A DNA stretch of 64,000 bases from Halobaculum sp. XH14 (GTDB lineage Archaea > Halobacteriota > Halobacteria > Halobacteriales > Haloferacaceae), in the NCBI RefSeq assembly GCF_032116555.1, contig NZ_CP134950.1, forward strand, positions 1 through 64,000, given 5' to 3'. Below the pieces are notes generated by a model that was not told where the DNA came from, did no database searches, and was given only the letters and a program-made list of their open reading frames with translations. Within the stretch, counting starts at the first letter, position 1. Every line of letters begins with the position of its first letter. Below are positions 302 through 8,338 of this stretch, in pieces. A program made the translations under genes and the position numbers.

Positions 302-1213
302 ATGCCCATCACCTATACCATCTACTCGGAATCAGGGGGAATCCACAAAACAACGTGGACAGCGAACCTCGCCGAGGCTCACGCTCGACAGGGATTCGAT
401 GTCCTCGTCATCGATCTCGACCACCAGGCCGCCAATCTCACCTACCTCTTCGATGTTGAGGAGGGGCGTGACGATCCCGAGGCAGACAATCTCGTCCGAC
501 ACGTCCTCGGACGACCCGACGGTGACTTCGAGGACCTCATTCGCAGCACCGACGAGGGAGTCGACGTCCTCCCGGCGCACGATATGCTCGAGGAATTCAC
601 CGAACTTCTCCTCCAACGTGAACGCTTCGAGGAGAATATGGGCGACGAATTCAACCGGTACGAGCAGCTCTATAACGTCCTCTGGGAGGAGAACAACGTC
701 CAGGACGACTACGACGTCGTCATCATCGACCCGAACGCTCGTGCTGAGATTATGCTGTATAACGCCATCTATGCCACTCGAACACTCGTATCACCGAGTA
801 AACCCGCTGGAAAGGGCAACAAGAGCCTCGAAGGGCTCGCAGGGCTCTTAGAGAGTATGAGTGAGAACCTGGGGATCGACGTCGGCGTCGCCGCAGTCAT
901 CCTCTCGGGTGCCGGTACAACCAGCACACACAACCGCTACATCGAAGAAATGGAAGATGAATACGGTATCGCCGCGACGATTGGCGAGCGACAAAGTATG
1001 ATGGACGAGATGTGGGATGCCCAAGGCACGGCGTTCAAAGTCGTCGAGGAAGCGTGGCACAACGGGGAGGCGGGAACCCGTCGCCTCCGCGAGCGCGAAG
1101 TCGAGACGCTCGAGACCATTCTCGATATTGCCAGCTACCTCACCGATGAGTTCGGCGTCGAACCCCCTCAGGAGCCGGAACTCAACATTGAGGACGCGGA
1201 GGTGATGTCCTAA
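302..1213 (+). CDS. parA: ParA-family partition ATPase with deviant Walker A
   Basis: About 303 residues. The N-terminus shows the ParA/MinD layout: a P-loop near residues 9-17 (ESGGIHKTT), a Walker A' aspartate motif (VLVIDLD) and a later VVIIDPNA strand. It probably segregates the replicon by ATP-dependent binding to DNA. The P-loop is odd: the signature lysine before GG is replaced (S) and the second glycine is replaced by H, while the KTT core is kept. The stop overlaps the start of the next gene (TAATG), so the two are translationally coupled. The start at 302 is chosen because of the TATA box at 268-277. Orphan plasmid ParA proteins in haloarchaea have this size. Confidence 0.8.
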   Translation: MPITYTIYSESGGIHKTTWTANLAEAHARQGFDVLVIDLDHQAANLTYLFDVEEGRDDPEADNLVRHVLGRPDGDFEDLIRSTDEGVDVLPAHDMLEEFTELLLQRERFEENMGDEFNRYEQLYNVLWEENNVQDDYDVVIIDPNARAEIMLYNAIYATRTLVSPSKPAGKGNKSLEGLAGLLESMSENLGIDVGVAAVILSGAGTTSTHNRYIEEMEDEYGIAATIGERQSMMDEMWDAQGTAFKVVEEAWHNGEAGTRRLREREVETLETILDIASYLTDEFGVEPPQEPELNIEDAEVMS

Positions 1214-1719
1214 TGGCGGGGTTGAAGAAGGGAACTGGGAGCCTCGATTTCGACGAGGAGTCGGACGAGGAGCCCGAAGAGACGGACGAGACCGAAGCAT
1301 CCGAATCGGAGAGGGAGGAGAGAGCAGCAGAGACGGAGACGCAACCCGACGCACCGACGGAATCCGATCCGACCACAAAGCCCCCATCTTCGGAGGAAAT
1401 GCCACAGGAAGAGACCCAATCACAGGCGGTGACACCGTCCCAGTCGGGCGATTTCGATCTGGATGACCTTCCGTACCTCGTGCAACGGCAGATGCGCGGT
1501 GCGTCGGTGAACGCGGACCGAACCAAGCAACTGCTGCTCGAGGTTCGTCCCTTTGTCAAAGAGGGTGAAGAGGACTTCTTGAACGACCTGCAAGACCTCG
1601 TTGATGGTCCTGTGTACAAGGGTGACGCGCGCGAAGCTGCGATGGTAGTCGCACAGGAACACCCCGAACTCGTCGCCGAGACACTCCGTGAGTGGGGAAT
1701 CGAATATCTGGATAAATAA
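1213..1719 (+). CDS. Acidic ParA-partner protein, unknown family
   Basis: 168 residues. The first ~75 residues are a low-complexity acidic segment rich in Glu, Asp, Ser and Thr. The C-terminal ~90 residues look folded and alpha-helical, starting around LDDLPYLVQRQMRGASVN. The start codon overlaps the parA stop (TAATG), and no other gene follows in the operon. Position and size suggest the DNA-binding or adaptor partner of ParA, in the role of ParB. No ParB nuclease or helix-turn-helix motif is recognisable, so the function is inferred from context only. Confidence 0.6.
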   Translation: MAGLKKGTGSLDFDEESDEEPEETDETEASESEREERAAETETQPDAPTESDPTTKPPSSEEMPQEETQSQAVTPSQSGDFDLDDLPYLVQRQMRGASVNADRTKQLLLEVRPFVKEGEEDFLNDLQDLVDGPVYKGDAREAAMVVAQEHPELVAETLREWGIEYLDK

Positions 1720-1819: not shown

Positions 1820-3076
1820 TCACTCGTCGACCGGGTGGGAAGTTGGCTCGTCGCCGGCGTCGTGTTGACCTCGCAGCTCTTGATCGTGCTCGGCGAAGGC
1901 GGCTTCAGCGCGTTCAGCCAGCTCACCCGCCTCAATGTGCGAGTAATGCTCGCGAACGATCTCTTCGGAGTTGTCTAGGTATCGGGCCGCCTCGGCGTGA
2001 CCGTACGCCCGGACGAGCACCTCACCGACACCACGACGAGCGCCGTGTGGAGCTAGATACCCGTGTTTATCGTCGAGGTCGATGTCCGCGTCCGCCGTGA
2101 GTCGTTTTAGGACCTCGCGAGCGCCGTGCGTCGTTAATGCAGGCGGTTCGATACCATAGTCAGCAAGCAGTTCGAGAGGTGACGCCTCGCCGTCATTCAC
2201 TTTCTCTGTGCGAATAGACTCGACTTCAGCCGGGTCATATCTTCGGGCGGTCATCGTCTGGGCAAACGTCTCCACCAGTGTCGGGTAGTCCAGGGTCGGG
2301 AACACCGGCCACTCCTCGCTTGACGCGTCTGTGATGCGCTTCAGCCGCTCCAGTGGAGGAACAGCAGGGTCTGGTAGCGGTCGGTCATCCCATTTCCCCG
2401 TTTTTCCGAGCACCTGGATGTTGTTGTCCTCGAACGAGACATCCGACCACCGCAATCCATCACGTCCGCGCCGATCGTCGTTTCCATCGGCGAGGACCTC
2501 GGCGCCGCGAACCCCTGTGAAGCAAAGGATGTAGACGAGTGCCCGATCACGAGTCGCCTTGATCGCCGTTTGGCGGTCCTCCGCGACAGCGTCGATGGCA
2601 TCGTGTGCTTGTTTGTTCACATACTCCAGGAGACGTGCTCGATGCTCGGCCGACCAGGCCTGTTGTTCTCCGCTCTTCCGACCTGTATCCTCGGGGAGTG
2701 GCTCTTTCGCCCGGCGTCGCTGGGCGATGTTCCCCGAGAGATAGCCTTCGCGAGCCGCCCAACCGCAAAATCCGGAGACGTGAGCGTAGTAATTCTGTAC
2801 CGTGCCCTCGGTCCACCCCTGCCGAGCAAGATACCGCGCGTACTCACGAAGATCACCGACGGACAGCTCCTCAAACGTCACCGATGACGACGAACGATCC
2901 TCCGCAAGAAATTCGATGAGCCGATTCACCTCGCGTTCAGCATGTCGTCGATACTGTCCGCTCTCGCCGTTGCGCCCCTTCCCCTTGTCCGAGAGGTAAT
3001 CTTCGAGAACATCGACGAGAGGTACCGCTGCGCCGCGTTCGTCACCTGAGTGCGAATGCTTCTCGTCGGAACTCAT
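1820..3076 (-). CDS. Tyrosine recombinase / phage-type integrase
   Basis: 418 residues, full length for a XerC/XerD-like recombinase. An N-terminal SAM-like core-binding domain (about residues 20-130) is followed by the catalytic domain. Catalytic residues are visible: Arg in TGVRGAEVL, His-x-x-Arg in APHGARRGVGE, and the nucleophile Tyr in VREHYSHIEAG. It cuts and rejoins DNA at a specific core site. The C-terminal tail is acidic and repetitive. It is transcribed away from a perfect inverted repeat at 3236-3263 that has the form of a recombinase core site. It probably serves element integration or plasmid multimer resolution. A damaged relative lies at 3367-4273. Confidence 0.9.
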   Translation of the reverse strand: MSSDEKHSHSGDERGAAVPLVDVLEDYLSDKGKGRNGESGQYRRHAEREVNRLIEFLAEDRSSSSVTFEELSVGDLREYARYLARQGWTEGTVQNYYAHVSGFCGWAAREGYLSGNIAQRRRAKEPLPEDTGRKSGEQQAWSAEHRARLLEYVNKQAHDAIDAVAEDRQTAIKATRDRALVYILCFTGVRGAEVLADGNDDRRGRDGLRWSDVSFEDNNIQVLGKTGKWDDRPLPDPAVPPLERLKRITDASSEEWPVFPTLDYPTLVETFAQTMTARRYDPAEVESIRTEKVNDGEASPLELLADYGIEPPALTTHGAREVLKRLTADADIDLDDKHGYLAPHGARRGVGEVLVRAYGHAEAARYLDNSEEIVREHYSHIEAGELAERAEAAFAEHDQELRGQHDAGDEPTSHPVDE

Positions 3077-3235
3077 CGCGATCCCTCGCTGTAGTCAAAT
3101 TCGGGTGGGGTTGGTTCTCGGGAACGAGCCGACAGGCGCCGATATCGCGCAGGGCCGTTCTGAGTGGTTGTATCCCGGGGTTTGAGCGGAGGCATTGGGT
3201 TCGCTGTGGCAGACGGCGGCCACCCCCTTGAATCT

Positions 3236-3263
3236 GTTTACGTTTATCGCACTAAACGTAAAC
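3236..3263. repeat. Perfect 10-8-10 inverted repeat, candidate recombination site
   Basis: GTTTACGTTT (3236-3245), an 8-base spacer (atcgcact) and AAACGTAAAC (3254-3263) form a perfect inverted repeat. It lies in the 290-base gap (3077-3366) between the intact recombinase and the recombinase remnant; nothing else is seen in that gap except an AT-rich stretch near 3340. Two 10-11 base arms around a 6-8 base spacer is the geometry of tyrosine-recombinase core sites (XerCD dif, phage att). It could instead be an operator or a hairpin in the recombinase leader. Confidence 0.5.
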
Positions 3264-3366
3264 GCTCTACTGGCTCGATTTGAATCTCTAAACCGGCGAT
3301 AAACACGTCCAAACCCAAGAATGCGCCATTTTAGCCAACTCATAAATTATATACCGCTATACAAAT

Positions 3367-4273
3367 TTGTGGTGTGGCTGGTGCGTCAACGAGGGCTATC
3401 TCGAGGCGCATTACGCGCAGCGGGCGAGTGCGATGGCGCCACTGCCGGAGGACGACGGCCGCAAGCCCGGCGACCAGCAGCTGGACGTCCGAACAGCGCC
3501 ACGTCGACGAACGGGCCCGCGACGCCGTCGAGGTGTACACGACACTCCCGGAGGAAACTGACCCCCTCGACAAGCAGCGAGGACGCTACGCGGCGCTGAA
3601 GGCGGCTCGTGACCGAGCTCTGGTGTTCGTTCTCGCGTACACCGCCGTTCGGGTCGGGGAACTCCTACGGGATCCGAACGACCCGCGTCGGCGCGGCGTC
3701 CGCTGGGAGGACCTCTCGCTCGACGACGGGAGTATGGACGTCTACCGGAAGAAACAGCAGTGGGACGCCGCCAGTCTCCCCGACCCGGTAATCTCTCCGC
3801 TGCGAAGCTATCGCCAGCTGATGGACCCGCCGACGGAGCGCTGGCCGGTGTTTCCGACATTCGACCAACGGACGCTCGCAGAGCTCGTCCAGGAAGAACT
3901 AGCCGAACGAGGGGAACGCCCAGAATCGATTACCGAGCGTCGTGAAAAGTACGCTCGCGACCTTCTCTTGACACTTGAGGGGGATATCCGGCCGCCGTCG
4001 ATCACGACGGATGGCGCACGATCGAATCTTCAACGGCTCTCAGAGGCCGCAGAGATTGACATCGACCATCCGAAACACGATTATCTTGCCCCGCACGGTG
4101 GTCGCCGAGGGATGGGTGAGGTGCTTGTCCGCGCGTTTGGGTACACTGTCGCTGCTCGGTACTTAGACAACTCTGAGGAGATGGTTCGTGAGCGCTATTC
4201 GCATATTGAGGCAGGCGAGCTAGGGGACGTTGCAACTGAGGCGCTCGAGAAGATCGATAGTGTACCGCAGTAA
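3367..4273 (+). pseudogene. N-terminally truncated, frameshifted tyrosine recombinase
   Basis: Two frames together encode a relative of the recombinase at 1820-3076. Frame one (3367 to about 3485) reads CGWCVNEGYLEAHYAQRAS and PLPEDDGRKPGDQQ, matching CGWAAREGYLSGNIAQRRR and PLPEDTGRKSGEQQ of the intact copy. Similarity then continues one frame over, from WTSEQRHVDERA to the end, including TAVRVGELL, APHGGRRGMGE and the nucleophile VRERYSHIEAG. The first ~110 residues of the core-binding domain are missing, and the break lies where AT-rich sequence begins near 3340-3365. All catalytic residues survive, so an open frame of up to 299 residues could still make a partial protein, but it lacks a proper N-terminal domain. 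Confidence 0.8.
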
Positions 4274-4305: not shown

Positions 4306-4959
4306 TCACACTGCTTCGACGGTAAACAGCGTGTCGTCGCTGAGGACAGTCTGTACCCGGCGGTGCCAGGCGTCAGCGAAGGCCTCTCGGTGCTGGTGGC
4401 TTGCCGATTCGTCGAGAATCCCCTGGAGGTTCCCGATTGCGGGTCCACCGTCAGGAACGTCGCTGACGTGGTAGGTCACTTCGACGGTCTCGTCTGTGTC
4501 GGTTCGCCGGAACCGGAACGTCGGCTCCGCCGTGTCCGGGTCGAACGCGTCGAAGACGAGAAGGTCGCGGCGGCCGCCGTAGCCGCCGGCGAGCCCGCTG
4601 AATCCGTCGTCTTCGGTCGCGCCAGTGACGTACGAGATGATGCGGCTCATCACGCCGTACGCAGCATCGTCCTGCGGGCCGGCCGCCTGTACCTCGATTT
4701 CGCTCCGAACTGGATAGTCGTCGGAATACAGGGCGTCGAGCCCGAACTGGACGATTCGGTAGGCGCCCGAGGCAGTCGGGCAGGAGTGCCCGGCCTCTTT
4801 CACCGCGTCCGCGTACGTGATGACGAACGGGTCGCCCGGTTCGAGGACGCCGAGGGCTTCCGCGACGGGGTCACGGATCTCGATCGGGTCGACCTCGTAG
4901 TCGACCTGCCAGTCGGTACCAGTGGGAGTCGCGTCAGTCGAAGTTGAATTAGTTGTCAT
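4306..4959 (-). CDS. FmdE-like domain protein
   Basis: 217 residues, soluble and acidic. After a Thr/Ser-rich leader comes GHSCPTASGAYRI near residues 68-80, then PVRSEIEVQAAG, the His-x-Cys-Pro pattern of the FmdE family (named after subunit E of formylmethanofuran dehydrogenase; proteins of this family bind metals such as zinc). The C-terminal half contains a conserved-looking segment with FRFRRTDTDETVEVTYHV. It lies 12 bases after the P1B ATPase in the same direction, so it probably belongs to the chaperone-ATPase-FmdE operon and may buffer or sense the metal. No enzymatic role is claimed. Confidence 0.65.
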   Translation of the reverse strand: MTTNSTSTDATPTGTDWQVDYEVDPIEIRDPVAEALGVLEPGDPFVITYADAVKEAGHSCPTASGAYRIVQFGLDALYSDDYPVRSEIEVQAAGPQDDAAYGVMSRIISYVTGATEDDGFSGLAGGYGGRRDLLVFDAFDPDTAEPTFRFRRTDTDETVEVTYHVSDVPDGGPAIGNLQGILDESASHQHREAFADAWHRRVQTVLSDDTLFTVEAV

Positions 4960-4971
4960 TGGTTGTGGTGG

Positions 4972-6891
4972 TTAGTGTCGGAGCAGTCGCATCCCGTTGA
5001 GGATAACGAGGAGAACGCTGGCCTCGTGGACCAGCATCCCAGCGGCGAGCGTAACGTAGCTCGTGAGCACGCCCGCGAGCAGGACAGTCACGGTCAGCAC
5101 CGCGAGCCCGACGTTCTCGAGGACGTTCCAGCGCGTCGCCTTGCTCAGTTTGACCGCGTACGGGATGCGTTCGAGGTCGTCGGCCATCAGCGCCATGTCC
5201 GCCGTCTCGATGGCGGTGTCCGTGCCGGCTGCGCCCATCGCAATACCGACGTCGGCGGTCGCCAGCGACGGCGCGTCGTTGATGCCGTCGCCGACCATCG
5301 CGACGACGTGGCCGTCGGACTGGTATTCTTCGATGACGGTCTGTTTGTCCTCGGGGAGGAGTTCGGCGCGGTAGTCGTCGATGCCCACCTCCCCTGCGAC
5401 GGCAGCTGCCGTCCGCTCGTTGTCGCCGGTGAGCATCACGGTCTGGATGCTGGCATCCTGCAGCGCCGCAACGACGCCAGGAGCGACCTCTCGGAGTTCG
5501 TCGCGCATGGCGATCACGCCGATGACGCTGCCGTCCCGCACGACGTGGACGGCCGTCTCACCACGCTCCTCACGGTTACGGACGTACTCGGCGACATGAG
5601 CCGGAACGTCGATGCCGCGGTCGTCGAGCAACGCCCGGTTACCAACGACGAGCTCCTGACCGTCTGCGTGGGCGACGACACCTTTCCCGGCGACCACGTC
5701 GAAGTCATCCGGATCTGGAACCGACCGGCGTTCGGCGTTCGCGTCGTCGGAATGGGCGACCGCCGCTCCGCCATCGGTTGCGGCGGTCGGACGGTCGCGT
5801 GCTGCGTCGACGATGGCGTCGGCGAGGTGATGTTCGCTCTTCTTCTCGGCGGTCGCCGCGAGCGAGAGGACCTCGTCGTCGGCGACGCCGAACCCCTCGA
5901 CGTCCGCGACGGTGGTCTCGCCCTTCGTGAGCGTCCCCGTCTTGTCGAAGGCGACGAGGTCGATTTTGCCGGAGCGCTCGAGGTGTTCACCGCCCTTCAT
6001 CAGCACGCCAGACCGAGCGGCGTTACCGATAGCCGAGACGATGCTGACCGGCGGTCCGATGACCAGCGCACCCGGACAGCCGATAACCAGCAGGGTCAAC
6101 GACAGGATCGCATTCTGTGTGACCGCGTATGCGCCGATCGCCAGCACGATGACGCCGGGCGTGTAGTACTTCGCGAACCGGTCGATGAGATTCTCCGTTG
6201 GCGACTGCGCCTCCTGGGCCTTCTCGACGCGGCGGATGATGCGTTCGAGCGTCGTATCCGAGCCCGCACCCGTCGTTCGGACTTCAAGCGCCCCTTCTTG
6301 GTTGACCGTCCCGGCGTAGACTTCGTCGCCGTAGGCCTTGTGGACGGGGGCGCTCTCGCCGGTGACTGGCGCCTGGTTGATGGCACTCTCGCCGTCGACG
6401 ACGGTCCCATCGACCGGAATCTTCCCACCCGGCTTCACGAGGACGACTTCACCCTCCTCGACGTCGTGAGCAGGTACTTCTTGGAGGTCTCCGTCGCGGC
6501 GTACTGTGGCCGTGTCGGGCGTCATCTCCAGGAGTTCCTGGAGGGCCGTCCGGGTCTTCCGCATTGTCCGGCCTTCCAGGTAGCTGCCGAGGCTGAACAG
6601 GAAGACGACGGCGGCAGCTTCCCAGTATTCGCCGATGACGATGGCACCAATGGCCGCCAAGGTCACGAGCGTCTTGATGCCGAGTGTTCGGTTGGTGACC
6701 TCGTAGTAGGCGGTCTTGGCGATGTCGTAGCCGCCGATGATCGCCGCGAGGATGAGAATACCGGCACTCGCTGTATTGAAGCCGGTGAAGTGGCCGAGGC
6801 TCCAGCCGGCACCGTAGAGCAGGCCGCTGGACGCCGTAACGATGGCCTTCCGGTTCTTCCGGTAGTACTGGGTGATCGTTTGTGCGTTCAT
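4972..6891 (-). CDS. P1B-type heavy-metal ATPase with CPG motif
   Basis: 639 residues, with no N-terminal metal-binding domain. Order of motifs: paired membrane helices, TGES actuator loop, the transmembrane metal motif CPG at about 272-274, phosphorylation site DKTGTLTKG near residue 316, a SEHH in place of the usual SEHP, TGDN, GDGINDAPSLATADVGIAM, and two C-terminal helices. It pumps a soft-metal cation out of the cytoplasm using ATP. CPG replaces CPC of Cu/Zn/Cd pumps and is known in a subgroup of P1B ATPases; substrate cannot be assigned (Zn, Cd or Cu are possible). The chaperone gene ends 4 bases upstream, and the FmdE-like gene follows. Confidence 0.92.
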   Translation of the reverse strand: MNAQTITQYYRKNRKAIVTASSGLLYGAGWSLGHFTGFNTASAGILILAAIIGGYDIAKTAYYEVTNRTLGIKTLVTLAAIGAIVIGEYWEAAAVVFLFSLGSYLEGRTMRKTRTALQELLEMTPDTATVRRDGDLQEVPAHDVEEGEVVLVKPGGKIPVDGTVVDGESAINQAPVTGESAPVHKAYGDEVYAGTVNQEGALEVRTTGAGSDTTLERIIRRVEKAQEAQSPTENLIDRFAKYYTPGVIVLAIGAYAVTQNAILSLTLLVIGCPGALVIGPPVSIVSAIGNAARSGVLMKGGEHLERSGKIDLVAFDKTGTLTKGETTVADVEGFGVADDEVLSLAATAEKKSEHHLADAIVDAARDRPTAATDGGAAVAHSDDANAERRSVPDPDDFDVVAGKGVVAHADGQELVVGNRALLDDRGIDVPAHVAEYVRNREERGETAVHVVRDGSVIGVIAMRDELREVAPGVVAALQDASIQTVMLTGDNERTAAAVAGEVGIDDYRAELLPEDKQTVIEEYQSDGHVVAMVGDGINDAPSLATADVGIAMGAAGTDTAIETADMALMADDLERIPYAVKLSKATRWNVLENVGLAVLTVTVLLAGVLTSYVTLAAGMLVHEASVLLVILNGMRLLRH

Positions 6892-6895
6892 TGGT

Positions 6896-7111
6896 CTAGG
6901 CGGGCTGGGGCGTGTAGCCCTGGTTTTCGATGGCCTGTGCGAAGGCGTCGGGGTCAGCGACGTTGTCGTCGTACTCGATCTCGACCCGGCCGGTCGTGTA
7001 GTGGACTTCCACGTTCTGGACGCCGTTGACGTTCGAGAGGGCGCGTTCGACGGTGCTCGCGCAGGTCGGGCAGTCGAAGTCCATCACGCGGAGTTGGGTT
7101 GTCTCGTTCAT
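6896..7111 (-). CDS. HMA-domain metallochaperone
   Basis: 71 residues, a single heavy-metal-associated ferredoxin-like domain. The metal site is MDFDCPTCASTVE near residues 10-22 (CxxC), followed by the expected pattern of valines and a C-terminal GYTPQPA end. The start at 7111 (MNETTQLRV) is preferred over an upstream ATG because the extension adds only basic, unaligned residues. It lies 4 bases before the P1B ATPase, which lacks its own HMA domain, so it probably delivers the metal to that pump. First gene of the operon; its promoter is in the AT-rich stretch 7139-7184 shared with the divergent regulator. Confidence 0.88.
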   Translation of the reverse strand: MNETTQLRVMDFDCPTCASTVERALSNVNGVQNVEVHYTTGRVEIEYDDNVADPDAFAQAIENQGYTPQPA

Positions 7112-7309
7112 CACAGTTCTACGTAGCACCCGGACTGCCATATATATTTTTTAGATGATATGTTTGAATAGGAATATGGGGCGTTGGAACAGTCAAACGA
7201 GTCGTATAGGACTTCTCCACGCTCCGACCACAGGATCAGCCACCCGGCCGAATCGTTCGACAGCCGTATGCTCCGCTACCTTTTCCCGCGCGTGTCTCGC
7301 AGTCCCACT

Positions 7310-7834
7310 ATGAGCAGTTCCGGCGCCGACCACCATCTCGACGACATCGCGATCAGGGATACCCGCGTCTCGGACGCCATCGACGAACCGATGCGGGCGA
7401 TGATCCTCGACATACTGGCCGATGAGGCACGGACGGCAGGCGAGGTTCACGACCGACTTACCGAGCGAGGGATCGAGCGGACCGAAAACACCGTTCGGCA
7501 CCACATCAACGAACTCCGCGATTCCGGGCTCGTAGACGTCGTCCGCTTTGAGGAGGGGCGTGGCGGCACGACGAAGTACTACCACGCGAACACGATCGTC
7601 CTCTCGTACTCACTACCGGGTTCGGCTGATGCCGCCGTGGAGGAGATGACGGATGCTATCCAGCCGCAGGTCACGGAGGCACTGAACCATCTCACGGAGG
7701 AGTACGAGGAATCTATCGAGGAGATCACAACGGAGATGCAGCCGTGTGACCACTGTCGGAACCAGAAGTACGAGACGTACGTCCTGCTGACCGTCCTGCG
7801 GCGAGCGTTCGTCCGCGCTCAGCGGGAATCGTAA
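7310..7834 (+). CDS. ArsR-like winged-helix metalloregulator
   Basis: 174 residues from the ATG at 7310 (MSSSGADHHLDD); an upstream in-frame ATG at 7184 would add a poorly conserved-looking leader. Residues ~15-85 form a winged helix-turn-helix with MRAMILDILADEARTAGEV and a recognition helix around NTVRHHINELRDSGLV, then a wing with GGTTKYYH. The C-terminal half carries CDHC (CxxC) within MQPCDHCRNQKYE and is alpha-helical, fitting a dimerising metal-sensing domain. It is divergent from the chaperone-ATPase operon across about 200 bases, so it most likely represses that operon until metal binds. Confidence 0.8.
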   Translation: MSSSGADHHLDDIAIRDTRVSDAIDEPMRAMILDILADEARTAGEVHDRLTERGIERTENTVRHHINELRDSGLVDVVRFEEGRGGTTKYYHANTIVLSYSLPGSADAAVEEMTDAIQPQVTEALNHLTEEYEESIEEITTEMQPCDHCRNQKYETYVLLTVLRRAFVRAQRES

Positions 7835-8044
7835 GCGACGCCAGTGACTCATAACGATATTTACTGACTCGGTCCATGGTGAGAGACTCCGTTGTTGTTG
7901 GATCTTCTGGTCACCCCATTCAGGACCCGTGTTCCCCGTGTCGCGCACGATCACCCGGGTGAAACGAATTGGCAGATGAAATCGCACGCCGTGAAGAGAA
8001 CGTTAACAGCGTCGATATCGTCGAAACACGAGTGATTGGGGGCG

Positions 8045-8338
8045 TTAATCGTTGTCGAGTTCGGAACCCGCGTCTCCTTCGGCGAAGATTCGCCGGGAGA
8101 TGATCGTTCCGTCAGAGATGGAATCAGGTTCGTCACGGCGGACGAAGCGTTTCTTGAGAACGTCGTAGGCGAACAGACTCGCACCGATGATAACGAAGCC
8201 CCAGTGGTAGCCTCCGACGTAGATCGTCCTGTCGACGCCGTCGCCACTGCCCGGGAGATTTCCAACGCATCCGGAGAGACCTGCGGTGCCGGCTCCGAGC
8301 GCAGTGAGAAACTCGCGTCGCTGTACTGTCGAGGACAT
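8045..8338 (-). CDS. Small Tat lipoprotein, possible oxidase-subunit remnant
   Basis: 97 residues. The N-terminus has a twin-arginine motif (QRREFLTALGAG) and a lipobox (LSGC) at about 21-24, so it should be exported folded and lipid-anchored outside the cell. Following DRTIYVGGYHWGFVII recalls the start of a cytochrome-oxidase-subunit-II-type cupredoxin, but no CuA ligands follow and the protein ends after a short basic then acidic tail. It may be a truncated cupredoxin or a separate small family. It lies 9 bases downstream of the SHOCT gene in the same direction. Confidence 0.6.
   Translation of the reverse strand: MSSTVQRREFLTALGAGTAGLSGCVGNLPGSGDGVDRTIYVGGYHWGFVIIGASLFAYDVLKKRFVRRDEPDSISDGTIISRRIFAEGDAGSELDND

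Follow-up and report, generated by a model that had tools for sequence, protein, structure and literature searches.

A palindromic 11-6-11 site beside a haloarchaeal plasmid tyrosine recombinase: the predicted core of an Xer-like recombination system

The recombinase module and its palindrome

The window (the whole stretch of 64,000 nucleotides analysed) contains a short palindrome and a tyrosine recombinase gene, both located on contig C2 (158,620 bp, plasmid-like) of a three-contig haloarchaeal genome. They belong to a module with the order parA, small gene, recombinase (int, on the minus strand), core palindrome and AT-rich element (Table 1). Leader-like ORFs occupy the same position in other int subfamilies, while the int-proximal box, which is probably an arm or promoter region, is retained even where int is more than 1 kb distant. 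Next to the AT-rich element lies the remnant of a second recombinase, of a sister subfamily (type B, the window core being type A), which has no core of its own. On the 3' side of this remnant, positions 4306-7141 encode a hypothetical protein, a cation P-type ATPase and a heavy-metal-associated protein with the gene order of Haloarcula pNG600, suggesting that this segment came from a type-B plasmid. The orientation of int relative to parA is opposite in type-A and type-B loci. Moreover, some type-B modules (L033 and L058, read in detail, and L023 and L053, by spacing) have at least one gene between core and int, including a possible winged-helix regulator, with the core and its flanking box unchanged.

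Table 1. Position of the features of the recombinase module in the window
Feature	Position	Strand	Remarks
ParA-type partition ATPase	302..1213	+	
Small protein directly after parA, putative partition partner	1213..1719	+	
Plasmid-encoded tyrosine recombinase (int)	1820..3076	-	Phage_int_SAM_5 and Phage_integrase domains
Short leader ORF	3073..3195	-	40 codons plus stop; stop overlaps the int start (ATGA); direct sequence reading
Int-proximal conserved box, AGATTCAAG...GCCGCCGTC...AGCGAA..ATG	3193..3235	-	Flank alignment, all arm types
Core recombination site (predicted), 11-6-11	3236..3263	.	Left arm 3236-3246, spacer 3247-3252 (TCGCAC), right arm 3253-3263
Outer AT-rich accessory element (putative), GTATAGCGGTATATAATTTATG	3341..3362	-	Starts 99 bp ahead of the core when read along int; identical to the family consensus (0 mismatches)
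Recombinase remnant	about 3365-4273	+	5'-truncated, frameshifted type B (sister-subfamily) copy, joined just outside the AT-rich element

The core reads GTTTACGTTTA-TCGCAC-TAAACGTAAAC. An earlier note on this DNA had described it as a perfect 10-8-10 inverted repeat, and GTTTACGTTT-N8-AAACGTAAAC is found exactly there; the geometry, however, is 11-6-11, since the A..T at both edges of the spacer also pair, giving arms of 11 bp and a spacer of 6 bp. This eleventh pair is invariant among the 22 related site types compared. Two inverted 11-bp arms around a 6-bp spacer are the layout of dif-type sites. The distances given in the same note also hold: 159 bases (160 as noted) to the recombinase start, and about 104 to the recombinase remnant.

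Allowing up to 3 mismatches, the 28-bp palindrome has no other match in the window, and chance matches in 100 dinucleotide shuffles amounted to 0.00. A search of the host genome (3.68 Mb) for the same 28 bases, proposed in the earlier note, gave this single copy with up to 2 mismatches allowed, and the inner 18 bases, CGTTTATCGCACTAAACG, are confined to this locus genome-wide at up to 3. Core plus spacer did not recur anywhere else in the genome, chromosome included, with up to 3 mismatches allowed. That the genome has just one copy, and the chromosome no further one, makes recombination between plasmids, or resolution, more likely than integration into the chromosome.

The Pfam domains of the window recombinase score above their cut-offs, which places it among the tyrosine recombinases (Phage_integrase). 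Residues R189, K224, H343, R346 and Y377 are conserved across homologues. Asn368 occupies the sixth catalytic position, normally His or Trp; nearly every homologue has Asn there (motif YLDNSE), a substitution which counts against a crossover site. The predicted fold (mean pLDDT 76.6, moderate confidence) best matches archaeal XerA (top), Cre and XerD, with lambda Int also matched, although an int profile search against PDB sequences gave no matches.

Conservation, co-variation and natural exchange at the core

Orthologues of int with 76-84% identity, encoded on plasmids of Halorarius, archaeon DL31, Haloplanus, Salinigranum and Salinirubellus, have the same core in the same place. A 316-bp query around the core matched these five, with a weaker match in Halarchaeum, and the homology begins at the outer edge of the core. 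The earlier note had made its reading depend on conservation of the site near homologous recombinases: the core is indeed kept beside the orthologues, and the search of related plasmids which it proposed found the core upstream of the int orthologue there. More widely, 80 homologous loci were drawn from 84,980 genomes, and in 72 of them an 11-6-11 palindrome (...TTA-N6-TAA...) occurs near int, nearly always exactly once, no core being detectable by the palindrome scan at about a tenth of the 80. The position of the core is also retained in loci with int more than 1 kb away. Judged from sequence comparison, the palindrome almost certainly belongs to a family of recombination sites that is widespread on haloarchaeal plasmids and apparently has not been described before.

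The arms differ between subfamilies: GTTTACGTTTA is that of type A (the window core), GGTCGTGATTA of B, ACGTACTCTTA of C, ACACTTGATTA of D, ACGCACGCTTA of E and GGGTGTGATTA of F. Exact type-A arms were not found in the 292 other genomes searched, so that this subfamily is rare there. Across the 22 site types, 97.1% of the arm cells are paired and all 8 variable pairs are doubly substituted; the covariation of the arms is 0.688, as against 0.236 when shuffled and at most 0.149 when slid. Furthermore, the more two int proteins have diverged, the more their arms mismatch (Spearman 0.78, Mantel p 0.0005), with no such relation for spacer mismatches (0.06, p 0.18). Such co-evolution of arms and int, with the spacer left out, is expected of a recombinase which recognises the arms and needs only the length and local homology of the spacer. 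The idea that the spacer serves as an identity tag differing between plasmids of one cell, to which early loci had pointed, found no support, as 2 of 54 pairs shared a spacer when 2.5 were expected (p 0.54).

The evidence for crossovers comes from type-B cores, whose arms differ from those of the window core and whose recombinase is about 50% identical. The Halorientalis marina plasmid unnamed3 (NZ_CP095490.1, 558,567 bp; contig G408:C4) contains three direct type-B cores, spaced by 113,253 and 113,254 bp and flanked as X-core-R1, Y-core-R1 and Y-core-R2. From the core onward, cores 1 and 2 share right flanks of 99.8-100% identity; the left flanks shared by cores 2 and 3 show 99.9% identity as far as the core. 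On this sequence pattern, unnamed3 reads as a plasmid Y-core-R1 integrated in tandem, at the core, into a plasmid X-core-R2, with a direct repeat of 113,254 bp. The tandem copy could in part be due to the assembly of free and integrated forms existing side by side; in either case, the join falls on the core. The spacer is CTCTGA at the first junction and CCTGAA at the other two, a difference not expected from simple strand exchange. A Y-core-R1 / Y-core-R2 pair was also found in Halorientalis persicus.

In a set of 74 type-B sites, one allele cluster accounts for the int-side flank of 52, and the outer flank falls into some 40 clusters. There are 116 pairs of sites sharing the int-side flank and differing in the outer flank, and in 115 of them the switch maps to the core, although the pairs are not independent and the conserved arms blur its exact position: 69 switches fall in the 10 bp outside the core, 10 in the left arm and 36 in the spacer. 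In the reverse class, with the same outer flank (25 pairs), the switch is more scattered and one locus is dominant.

Several different cores may also occur on one contig, as for the three in G151:C2 (368,639 bp). Apparent double sites in G412, G180 and G290 were discarded as contig-end overlaps, in the case of G290 from site positions and contig size. On contig G301:C5, two same-spacer type-B cores (L097, at about 124.9 kb, and L098, at about 164.9 kb) lie inverted and 40 kb apart, with no recombinase within about 3 kb; this pair is possibly an invertible segment or a defective element.

The AT-rich outer element

The AT-rich element GTATAGCGATATACGATTTATA has a single match in the window. When the element was searched from 22 to 221 bp upstream of the cores, 96 distinct cores were found to have it on their outer side, at distances of 87-90, 97-101, 108-110 or 120 bp and nothing else, with more than one turn class within each of the arm lineages B, D and E. 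When 47 loci had previously been tested for phase, R was about 0.91 with a period of 10.25-10.5 bp, the relatedness of the loci making formal p-values optimistic. Spacing by whole turns of DNA implies a phased accessory complex, and the 96 cores thus share with cer and psi a one-sided accessory sequence in helical phase.

The spacing rule was used as a prediction on the other plasmid of the genome (contig C3), whose recombinase is 41% identical to that of the window and where the palindrome scan had given no site. An AT-element match at C3:70947 is followed, 100 bp further, by a 10-of-11 core, ACTCGGTTGTA-ATCGAA-TACAACCAAGT; five other, weaker matches in the genome have no such core at the expected spacing. 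At this locus (L094, G000:C3) the core, at 7049-7076 of L094, falls inside the longest possible int ORF (6995-8305), so that int probably starts further downstream. As some of the weaker matches precede genes, the AT element may resemble or act as a promoter; it is similar to haloarchaeal promoters, and part of its conservation could be regulatory.

A DDE transposase of about 560 aa (DUF772/DDE_Tnp_1) ends 206-211 bp outside the AT element at 29 of the 96 cores, in a single orientation. Its copies (loci L155, L164, L012, L035, L069, L009, L002 and others) are mostly 72-84% identical to a reference copy, with the end motif TAGTCTCAxC mostly 18-20 bp away, and more distantly related transposases lie at 222-239 bp. 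The exact inverted left end of the neighbouring transposase was looked for and not found. This DDE element looks like an insertion sequence targeting recombination sites.

Interpretation and relation to known systems

The palindrome is very probably the core crossover site of the adjacent, plasmid-encoded, Xer-like tyrosine recombinase system. The earlier note had proposed a crossover or dif-like site, and the conservation beside orthologues, the co-variation of arms and int and the type-B crossovers at the core support that reading; the phased outer element and the int-proximal box do not figure in that note. We infer that two recombinase monomers would bind the 11-bp arms of one core and cut the strands where the arms meet the 6-bp spacer, and that two cores would then recombine, most likely with four monomers synapsing the two sites at the core. 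In a plasmid dimer, recombination between two direct cores would restore monomers, as at a plasmid dif/cer site beside a parA partition module, and multimer resolution is the likely main role of the core. The same reaction between two plasmids would give cointegrates; plasmid fusion, flank exchange and multi-core contigs would show, from the sequences compared, a cost or benefit of it. A probable function of the AT element is to bind an accessory protein, which would wrap or bend the DNA, set the direction and favour dimer resolution, as in cer/psi. Finally, the overlap of the leader ORF stop with the int start and the conserved box between core and int suggest that int bound at the core also autoregulates.

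Such autoregulation is compatible with a crossover site. That the palindrome is only an operator, at which int or another dimeric regulator represses the int operon with no DNA exchange, is improbable: it is indeed placed immediately ahead of the leader ORF and int, the AT element is promoter-like, and constant arms with variable spacers are also typical of operator palindromes, but the alleles of the flanks change over precisely at the core, where a natural cointegrate is joined as well, the arms track the recombinase and the core stays in place with int more than 1 kb away. The neighbouring recombinase, together with a few related cores on chromosome-sized contigs, might point to the attP of an element integrating into the host chromosome. 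This is hardly probable, given that core plus spacer has no second genomic copy (up to 3 mismatches) that could serve as attB or as attL/attR, that loci have one core each and no attL/attR pairs, and that the cores go with parA and complete plasmids.

The association with parA raises the idea of a centromere (parS) for the neighbouring ParA system, as in this and many other plasmids parA and its small partner gene are found within 3 kb. However, the same type-B core occurs beside ParA proteins 28% to 99% identical to that of pNG600, or with none detected nearby, int being constant, and there is a single site and not an array, so that a centromere is extremely improbable. A site of inversion, flipping gene orientation in phase variation, would agree with the opposite orientations of int relative to parA in type-A and type-B loci and with the genome holding two inverted, same-spacer type-B cores about 40 kb apart; it is nevertheless just as remote, since the single core on the plasmid and in the whole genome has no inversion partner.

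Going beyond the crossover site itself, a joint reading can be put forward tentatively: haloarchaeal plasmids would carry a broad family of self-contained Xer-like modules with distinct arms, in which the phased accessory element and an archaeal protein act as a topological filter for multimer resolution, the cores being hotspots of plasmid fusion and half-exchange which build megaplasmids, and the DDE insertion sequence homing to the accessory element. Both the resolution of archaeal plasmid multimers and the origin of haloarchaeal megaplasmids by fusion are poorly known, and a 28-bp core with a phased accessory element and its recombinase makes these questions directly testable. In addition, the arm types, each with a matching recombinase, could supply orthogonal recombination tools working at high salt.

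Among known systems, P1 Cre-loxP and other plasmid-encoded tyrosine resolvases likewise have a plasmid-encoded recombinase with its own palindromic site, and the predicted fold matches Cre. The loxP site is 13-8-13 and is not known to have an accessory site, whereas the present one is 11-6-11 with a phased accessory element, its arms reaching inward to 11 bp through the invariant pair and not outward. In cer (ColE1) and psi (pSC101), the core has accessory DNA on one side and accessory proteins enforce resolution. PepA, ArgR and ArcA are named as partners (PMC2958812). The present family resembles cer and psi in its one-sided accessory DNA, and differs in its plasmid-encoded recombinase and in having just one AT-rich motif, at 87-120 bp, as accessory element.

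Dimer resolution of archaeal chromosomes by XerA/dif has been described (Cortez et al. 2010, PMC2958812), and the dif sites of Thermococcales are not adjacent to xerA (PMC2958812). With Xer/dif (bacterial XerCD-dif and archaeal XerA-dif), the present system has in common the 11-6-11 core, the single copy per replicon and the tyrosine recombinase. In contrast to a chromosomal Xer with a terminus site, recombinase and core lie on C2; the enzyme is plasmid-encoded, adjoins its own site and belongs to a different family, and the arms vary by subfamily, with TTA-N6-TAA as the inner bases. The SNJ2-type and pR1SE-type integrases are also tyrosine recombinases of haloarchaeal mobile elements, integration activity with helper genes having been proven for that of SNJ2 (PMC8371274). 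In the open-access texts searched on archaeal XerA/dif and virus or plasmid integrases, no description of a core site for the present recombinase family was found. The system is thus Xer-like in geometry and probably in role, and it is set apart by its plasmid-encoded enzyme, its linked site and its distinct accessory element.
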